From the IMG/VR virus record IMGVR_UViG_3300017692_000062, positions 1-39,423 of that record: a DNA stretch of 39,423 nucleotides, one strand, 5' to 3'. Under the pieces are notes generated by a model, which ran no database searches, was not told the origin of the DNA, and was given only the letters and a program-made list of their open reading frames with translations. Numbering within the stretch: the stretch's first letter is position 1; each line of letters opens with the position of its first letter. Positions 8,168 through 12,368 of the stretch are shown here, one piece after another. A program made the translations under genes and the position numbers. Origin of the DNA: a virus.

Positions 8168-8225
8168 GTTCTAGTAGGACCAGTCCTACTCGTCAACTAG
8201 GAAAGTGGGAGGTGTCCTACTTTTA
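8168..8225 (-). promoter_or_regulatory. CI-controlled leftward promoter, copy 1
   Basis: Leftward -35 TTGACG (8196-8191) and -10 TAGAAC (8173-8168), 17 bp apart. The spacer is filled by the perfect palindrome GTAGGACCAGTCCTAC (8174-8189). A second, imperfect site GTGGGAGGTGTCCTAC lies upstream (8205-8220), centred 31 bp away. The whole 58-bp block recurs at 12056-12113 with one difference. It should drive 8107 leftwards, through xis and int, and be shut by CI. Confidence 0.75.
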
Positions 8226-8251
8226 TGTGGGATGGTGCATGCACAACGAAA

Positions 8252-8305: not shown

Positions 8306-9079
8306 TTAGCGCGGTATGCGTGGCGCCGGGCGGCTAGTCGGCAAAAGGTGCGCGATGTGCGGCAATGCGGCGGGGTCACGAGTATTGAAATAGCGGGATG
8401 CTTCGTTCGGGATCCAGTCCGACTCCACGTAGATGCGAAAGGGAGCAAGAAGCGATACTGGATACTGCCGAGCTTCAATCTCCTTCGCCGGTGTCCAGTG
8501 AAGGTAGAAGGTGTAATCATCTGCCAAGCTGGGGTGGTTACGCTTCAGCCAAGTCGAGAAACCTCGCCCGACACTGACATCAGGCCGTAGTTCCCTGCCG
8601 TCGGCCGCGTTGTCAGCCATGATGTGCCCGAGGTGTTCAAAGCGCCCCCAGAGCAGCGTGGTCAACTCGTTGATGACCGAGAAGCAGCCCTCCGACACTC
8701 GATCCCAGTTCTGATTGTAGCGCCGGATGAATGCTGGCGTTCCGTTCCCATACGAGCCGGTCTTGCGGATTGATGGTAGAACCTCGCTGGTGACCCACTT
8801 TTTGAACTTCTTTGCTTCAGGTTTGCGACTGCGCAGGATCAGGCTGTAGAGCCCCGACTCGTTGATGATGACCATCCTTTGGGCCCCGCCAGGGGTATCA
8901 CTAGTAATGATACCCTTCTCGTCGGCGTCTAACGTGGACGCGGCTTGGGAGGGGTTGCCGTGGTCAAGCTCGCGACAAACGTCAGTGAGTACGAACCACG
9001 GCTCGCCTTTCTGGTCGATGATGCGAAAGGGGCGTTTGTTCTCGTATTCGAAGACCTTGAGGGCATGCTGTATCGGCAT
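8306..9079 (-). CDS. ant: Bro-N antirepressor
   Basis: 257 aa from ATG 9079 with AGAGG nine bases upstream. Residues ~8-108 are a Bro-N domain (VFEYENKRPFRIIDQKGEPW, VLTDVCRELDHGNPSQAAST, INESGLYSLILRSRKPEAKK, WVTSEVLPSIRKTGSYG). Residues ~115-250 are a separate C-terminal domain that I cannot name with confidence. Bro-N antirepressors bind or displace the prophage repressor. Here the gene is last in the erf-ninB operon, behind a 250-base leader with several strong dyads (9101-9326). Likely a CI antagonist. Confidence 0.85.
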   Translation of the reverse strand: MPIQHALKVFEYENKRPFRIIDQKGEPWFVLTDVCRELDHGNPSQAASTLDADEKGIITSDTPGGAQRMVIINESGLYSLILRSRKPEAKKFKKWVTSEVLPSIRKTGSYGNGTPAFIRRYNQNWDRVSEGCFSVINELTTLLWGRFEHLGHIMADNAADGRELRPDVSVGRGFSTWLKRNHPSLADDYTFYLHWTPAKEIEARQYPVSLLAPFRIYVESDWIPNEASRYFNTRDPAALPHIAHLLPTSRPAPRIPR

Positions 9080-9100
9080 CCGGATAAGCCTCTTAGTGCA

Positions 9101-9181
9101 GGCTATCGCAGGACCTCTTGACCGGATCGCGCCCCTAGTAGATAGGGCGATTGAGAGACGATCCGAAGGGCCTGCGATGCC
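9101..9181 (-). ncRNA. Long rod-like RNA structure in ant leader
   Basis: Three nested stems share one axis. The outer stem has 11 bp with a one-base bulge (9101-9112 with 9171-9181). The middle is a perfect 7-bp CGGATCG/CGATCCG (9123-9129 with 9159-9165). The inner is CGCCC/GGGCG (9130-9134 with 9145-9149) with a 10-base loop. It lies 22 bases upstream of the ant ATG on the same strand. Position and shape recall the C4 antisense RNAs of P1/P7-type antirepressor operons, but homology has not been tested. Confidence 0.5.
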
Positions 9182-9191
9182 CTAGGTTAAT

Positions 9192-9224
9192 GGCGCTGCA
9201 AGTCCCGCACGGATTCGCAGCGCC
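9192..9224 (-). other. Strong hairpin in ant leader
   Basis: Perfect 8-bp stem GGCGCTGC/GCAGCGCC (9192-9199 with 9217-9224). It continues after one A/C mismatch with a 5-bp stem AGTCC/GGATT including a G-U pair and a CGCAC loop: 13 bp in all. It starts at about the transcription start predicted for the promoter at 9232-9261. Confidence 0.55.
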
Positions 9225-9231
9225 ACGTTCC

Positions 9232-9265
9232 ATCGTACAGTATGAACACCTTGGTAACCAAGGTG
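9232..9265 (-). promoter_or_regulatory. Candidate ant promoter with 19-bp palindromic operator
   Basis: CACCTTGGTAACCAAGGTG (9247-9265) is a perfect 9-1-9 palindrome. On the leftward strand TTGGTT (9261-9256) and TACGAT (9237-9232) are 18 bp apart, so the palindrome would cover the -35 box. The operator sequence is unrelated to the GTAGGA sites of CI, so another regulator would bind it. The -35 is a weak match. Confidence 0.4.
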
Positions 9266-9310
9266 CGCGACGGTCTTCTCTACATCGACATACCCGGTTT
9301 GTTCATGCCT

Positions 9311-9326
9311 GTTGCTCGGCAGCAAC
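9311..9326 (-). terminator. Hairpin just after ninB
   Basis: GTTGCT-CGGC-AGCAAC, a perfect 6-4-6 stem five bases after the ninB stop. No T tract follows on the leftward strand, so it could be an attenuator or mRNA-end stabiliser rather than a simple terminator. Confidence 0.3.
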
Positions 9327-9330
9327 AGAT

Positions 9331-12055: not shown

Positions 12056-12113
12056 GTTCTAGTAGGACCAGTCCTACCCGTCAACTAGGAAAGTGGGAGG
12101 TGTCCTACTTTTA
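12056..12113 (-). promoter_or_regulatory. CI-controlled leftward promoter, copy 2
   Basis: 57 of 58 bases match 8168-8225. -35 TTGACG (12084-12079) and -10 TAGAAC (12061-12056) flank the operator GTAGGACCAGTCCTAC (12062-12077), and GTGGGAGGTGTCCTAC lies upstream (12093-12108). It drives erf through ant. Its far end reaches the stop codon of the lipoprotein gene, so leftward cI transcripts have no obvious barrier before it. Confidence 0.75.
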
Positions 12114-12368
12114 GGTAGCGGGTTTGCCGCACATAGCATCTCCGCCTTCCACATAGTGACTGCAGTAGCGGACAGTCCCCTCCCGGGTGTCCAAGACGTA
12201 AATGCCATCGCCGTCCTTAGCCGACACCATTTGAAAACGGCCTGCAGGATTACGCAGTAGATTGCCCTTCTCGGCAGCGCTCAACGTGGATTGATCTTGC
12301 CCTGCCGACGGTCCGCACGACGTGACGACCAGCGCGAAAAGACTCAACAAGATGTTTCTGCCTGCCAT
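12111..12368 (-). CDS. Putative lipoprotein coupled to cI (85 aa)
   Basis: The ATG at 12368 is one base after the cI stop, so it should be made with the repressor in lysogens. Residues 5-18 (NILLSLFALVVTSC) form a lipoprotein signal with lipobox V-T-S-C18. The mature part has two more Cys (RYCSHYVEGGDAMCG) that could pair, and a beta-rich GRFQMVSAKDGDGIYVLDT. A phage lipoprotein expressed from the immunity operon suggests superinfection exclusion or lysogenic conversion (compare small phage lipoproteins such as T5 Llp or Cor). No homology is claimed. Confidence 0.75.
   Translation of the reverse strand: MAGRNILLSLFALVVTSCGPSAGQDQSTLSAAEKGNLLRNPAGRFQMVSAKDGDGIYVLDTREGTVRYCSHYVEGGDAMCGKPAT

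Follow-up and report, generated by a model that had tools for sequence, protein, structure and literature searches.

Prediction of a short antisense RNA gene in the leader of a phage Bro-N gene with a BstA-like C-terminal domain

Related systems and the nature of the gene

In phage P22, the sar gene of the immunity I region specifies a short RNA that runs opposite to the leader of ant; a repressor operator acts on ant as well, and the behaviour of this region is that of a moron (PMC2629481, PMC12197685). A second described system is centred on BstA, a prophage abortive-infection protein made up of two separable domains, with some homologues sharing the C-terminal domain only (PMC8585504). In the Salmonella prophage BTP1 the start codon of bstA is covered by aba, a 63-bp element with terminal direct repeats, and the study that described it left the mechanism of self-immunity open (PMC8585504). 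Our literature search found no paper that links BstA to antisense RNA or to Bro-N. A third arrangement is represented by the C4 RNA (RF01695) of P1/P7, a leader RNA located before Bro-N/ant-type genes.

The locus described here is part of a viral record (IMGVR_UViG_3300017692_000062) whose positions 1–39,423 are referred to as the window. The gene of interest (positions 8306–9079, minus strand) encodes a protein of 257 amino acids with matches in Pfam, PHROG and PADLOC. Its N-terminal part of about 100 residues is a Bro-N domain (Pfam, E 2e-25) whereas residues 112–235 match the C-terminal half of BstA (BstA-C; PHROG, E 3e-14; PADLOC, E 6e-8). Over this half the window protein is 33% identical to an E. 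coli phage protein recognized by the BstA model of PADLOC (3e-21). An AlphaFold model of the window protein comprises two domains (pLDDT 81.9); no solved relatives were found by sequence, and comparison of the modelled fold with the PDB gave no significant match.

A sequence-only reading of the window had named this gene ant and regarded it as an antirepressor gene, a view that does not account for the BstA domain in its C-terminal half. Given this domain, and since there are BstA homologues which share the C-terminal domain alone, the label 'antirepressor' is unsafe. Judged by sequence, the gene is at least as likely to be a replication-blocking accessory gene as an antirepressor gene; its product seems to be related to a phage-defence protein and may itself have a role in defence. 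Bro-N genes that are labelled antirepressors can thus turn out to be something else. With the BstA–aba system the locus has in common the C-terminal BstA domain and a sequence-divergent upstream region that accompanies each gene. It differs in that the N-terminus is Bro-N instead of the KilA-N of BstA, in that the gene has its own predicted promoter whereas bstA is co-transcribed with cI, and in that no terminal direct repeats extend over the start codon.

Structure of the leader

The leader corresponds to the minus strand from 9330 to 9080 and is flanked by ninB (9810–9331, minus strand) and the Bro-N gene. The four dyads reported previously between these two genes were all found at their places by sequence inspection and by folding against shuffled sequences. 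Folded as a gene-strand RNA, the 254-nt leader reaches −115.7 kcal/mol as compared with −86.0 ± 5.4 kcal/mol for dinucleotide shuffles (z −5.5), and none of 200 shuffles was as stable. A 35-nt hairpin (hairpin 1; 9191–9225, −24.9 kcal/mol) sits at the predicted start of the sense transcript, as the earlier reading had it, and an imperfect rod of 84 nt follows (9100–9183, −44.2 kcal/mol).

Upstream of hairpin 1 lies a perfect 19-bp palindrome (9+1+9; CACCTTGGTTACCAAGGTG; 9247–9265), a presumed operator that overlaps the −35 element of a candidate sense promoter, TTGGTT-N18-TACGAT (9232–9261, minus strand; −35 at 9261–9256, −10 at 9237–9232). The palindrome occurs once in the window when up to three mismatches are allowed, and 0 of 200 shuffles of its own region equalled it. 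The exact sequence is absent from the viral contigs, and an operator palindrome shared throughout the family was not found, significance being reached only in the window and in one relative (L096); the match seen in another (L072) is a TGTTGC element, not the operator palindrome. A scan with a strict E. coli-type consensus did not recover the candidate sense promoter. Taken as predictions, promoter and operator bear out the previous description of a structured leader equipped with both. A LexA box was considered and rejected, as the only GTTC-N7-GTTC match in the leader (9244–9258) has one mismatch and the window-wide frequency of such matches is that expected by chance.

The TGTTGC element just mentioned, TGTTGC-N6-GCAACA, is the remaining dyad of the leader, located at 9310–9327 in the window, and is also present upstream of relatives' genes (L072 and L074, both 2440–2457; L076, 2336–2353; L090 at −220 with one mismatch). 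It is found 220–290 nt upstream of several BstA-C genes that differ in their N-termini, and its spacing is CRP-like. Only five exact copies occur in 1.03 Mb of fetched loci, of which that in L058 is unrelated in position.

The rod had been described as pairing a segment 60–80 bases upstream with one just before the ribosome site, so that a processed RNA could act on the leader in trans as C4 does in P1/P7. It does match the C4 RNAs of other Bro-N genes in strand and rough place, and its size is similar. Yet the Rfam C4 covariance model gave no match at the gathering score or at E ≤ 10, even though the same library detected C4 RNAs ahead of seven further Bro-N genes in the fetched loci, each time on the gene's own strand (L013, L016, L129, L137, L138, L161, L164), and RF01695 was likewise not detected in any of the family loci scanned. 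Moreover, the complementarity of the rod and hairpin 1 to the ribosome-site region is at the level of chance, with 17–45% of shuffles being as good, and not all relatives have a strong rod. A C4-like mode of action is therefore very improbable. Two of the C4-bearing loci, L137 and L138, contain an isrK RNA as well.

Conservation of the rod was indeed uneven. Although most family members have a strong rod, its z values range from −6.3 to +0.2, and it is weak in L089, L094 and L098, which disqualifies it as a universal feature. DNA comparison with phages, with plasmids and with the fetched loci yielded no homologue of the leader, and the ten leader groups represented by the relatives can barely be aligned (pairwise local scores average 11.1 for the leaders and 9.2 after shuffling, with maxima of 20 and 13, respectively). 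Compensatory changes are present in one alignable group consisting of the mutually related leaders L092, L096 and L192: three double changes among 48 pairs, one of them in hairpin 1 and two in the rod. Broken pairs in this group are confined to the flanks, with the hairpin 1 stem and the core of the rod remaining intact.

A conserved promoter motif and the predicted antisense RNA

What the leaders do share is a short motif on the strand opposite to the gene. The pentamer GTCAA starts at −38 to −51 from the start codon in all 12 leaders of two-domain relatives first examined, as compared with one of 104 distinct control leaders of Bro-N genes without BstA-C (two of 104 in a slightly wider range of positions). 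It is also the most widely shared 5-mer within a positional range of 20 nt, being present in 10 of 10 leader groups against a maximum of 5 of 10 in 300 shuffles. When leaders are anchored on GTCAA, the next best column is a T at −20 (9 of 11), equivalent to an A on the opposite strand. Read from that strand, the motif becomes TTGAC, a 17-nt spacer and xA, i.e., the −35 element and −11A of a σ70 promoter with no conserved −7T. The missing −7T is expected, as most promoters of Alphaproteobacteria, and more than 80% in Novosphingobium, lack it (PMC8407463). The motif thus fits the alphaproteobacterial pattern; the plasmid relatives are alphaproteobacterial. As the strength of the rod varies among relatives, it is this motif that defines the leaders.

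In the window the predicted −35 element is TTGACC (9118–9123, plus strand), located within the rod, and the predicted −10 element, at a spacing of 17 nt, is GATAGG (9141–9146, plus strand), which is weak except for the conserved −11A. The motif faces away from the gene and into hairpin 1. From promoter and hairpin we infer an antisense RNA of about 80 nt with approximate ends at 9153 and 9232 (plus strand); the analogous RNAs predicted in relatives measure about 70–96 nt. Hairpin 1 would then have a dual role, standing at the 5' end of the sense mRNA and, presumably, at the 3' end of the antisense RNA. On the opposite strand a T-run comes after it in L072, L092, L096, L192 and L094, and a weak one in L089 and L090; in the window no T-run is present on the plus strand. 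One strict scan detected opposite-strand terminators in 6 of 12 family leaders as compared with 15 of 104 controls (11 of 52 when only GC-rich controls are considered), which is a moderate enrichment. With a weak −10 element and a terminator that lacks the T-run, the case for the window rests on homology.

Candidate sense promoters just upstream of hairpin 1 were also spotted by eye in L072 (TTGCAA-N17-TACAAT) and L090 (CTGACA-N18-TATAGT). As these point toward hairpin 1 from one side and the antisense promoter from the other, the 5' end of the mRNA would be the place where both RNAs overlap. We propose that the sense promoter near 9232–9261, controlled via the operator palindrome, would start the mRNA at hairpin 1, and that the second promoter inside the rod would drive the antisense RNA back through this hairpin, where it would end. 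This RNA would be fully complementary to the mRNA 5' end and, perhaps together with the collision of two polymerases, most likely keep the level of a harmful, replication-blocking protein low. A short antisense RNA is thus the most likely product of the leader's opposite strand, in a layout common to related genes of many phages and bacteria with hardly any matching letters. In its specific form, a sar-like RNA gene of about 80 nt that opposes a repressor-controlled sense promoter of a BstA-like gene, this is the account we consider probable. An RNA regulator, as previously suggested, hence remains the best explanation of the leader, but the conserved promoter motif suggests the opposite strand as its source rather than processing of the gene's own transcript.

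Accessibility of the ribosome site did not change consistently upon antisense binding over 12 leaders, and the operator palindrome is unlikely to have arisen by chance. Both observations would suit control exclusively in cis, in which an operator governs the promoter, the 5' untranslated region is structured, and the opposite-strand promoter acts by transcription interference, its RNA being inert. Such a model by itself leaves the enrichment of opposite-strand terminators and the compensatory changes in hairpin 1 unexplained, and we regard it as unlikely.

The predicted antisense RNA resembles P22 sar in its shortness, in that a predicted opposite-strand promoter would read over the leader of an ant-type gene which is presumably also under a repressor operator, and in the moron-like behaviour of the region. 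Unlike sar, it would lie about 75–150 nt ahead of the start codon, starting near −74, and leave the ribosome site uncovered; its target would be a Bro-N plus BstA-C gene. With C4 it shares a place before a Bro-N/ant gene and a similar size, but C4 is encoded on the gene's own strand. Among Bro-N genes of this kind there would be at least two leader-RNA arrangements with no relation to each other, the C4 type and the antisense type.

A link between the leader and the self-immunity element aba is possible. If the dyads were recognized as DNA by the BstA-like protein, they might confer self-immunity on the phage in the way of the 63-bp aba DNA of BTP1, and the relatedness of the gene to bstA would be in keeping with this, as would the fact that each leader is divergent and travels with its gene, as cognate elements should (PMC8585504). 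However, aba extends over the start codon and depends on direct repeats at its ends, while no direct repeats of at least 6 nt exist between −29 and +34 of the window gene, and a cognate, divergent DNA element would not be predicted to share a TTGAC promoter motif, so that this explanation appears rather improbable. Alternatively, the antisense RNA itself might be the self-immunity factor, providing a copy-proportional and cognate-only shut-off of blocker synthesis during replication of its own prophage, i.e., the task of aba in BTP1. To this extension we attach only a slim chance; if true, self-immunity would here be switched by an RNA within a defence gene of a prophage.

Genes outside the defining set and mobility of the locus

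The motif was checked on BstA-C genes that had not been used to define it, namely L076, which lies on an Azospirillum plasmid, and further loci in genomes belonging to two orders, to which the sample around the alphaproteobacterial MAG G001 had led. Seven genes of this set are of the KilA-N type at their N-terminus by inspection, and several start codons had to be chosen among candidates. Five of the seven carry a TTGAC promoter in place: L076 (TTGACT-N17-TATACA at −38), L200 (TTGACA-N16-TATGTT at −42), L204 (TTGACG-N17-CATAAC at about −52, by eye), L203 (TTGACA-N17-AATATG at −54) and L201 (TTGACC-N16-TAAAAA at −55). The position of the L083 sequence (TTGATC-N18-TATGTC) hinges on the start codon, and the motif in L202 is weak. 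In the strict scan, opposite-strand terminators were found at five of the seven genes (L200, L202, L083, L204, L076; Fisher p 0.002 versus controls). Neither the motif nor hairpins were detected in the leader of L199, a close Bro-N relative, and the motif was not seen at the gammaproteobacterial bstA loci L078–L080. The predicted antisense RNA gene, with its conserved place before bstA-like genes of Bro-N and KilA-N type alike, would be a concrete candidate for the regulator that restrains them.

Full-length relatives of the window protein (54–74% identity) are encoded on viral contigs, on plasmids of the Roseobacter group, with L073 and L075 coming from Sulfitobacter or Phaeobacter strains, and in a record entered as Synechococcus phage Ssp-JY41. 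Their neighbourhoods are unrelated, with recombination genes in the window and, by ORF reading, a terminase-like gene next to L089, and hence gene and leader appear to travel together as one unit. The Ssp-JY41 locus (L072; PP438431.1) has its genes laid out as in Pseudosulfitobacter plasmids, including L074 (NZ_CP086799.1), with a leader nearly identical to theirs, and the record may represent not a cyanophage but a plasmid of Roseobacter. Four BstA-C genes of equal match score and frame length (L084, L085, L087, L088) are present in the 2.5-Mb genome G029, which suggests a repeated mobile element. Finally, a 29-bp repeat occurs in the window downstream of the Bro-N gene (8200–8228) and upstream of the erf operon (12088–12116); the two copies are 97% identical and are perhaps operators of the phage repressor.
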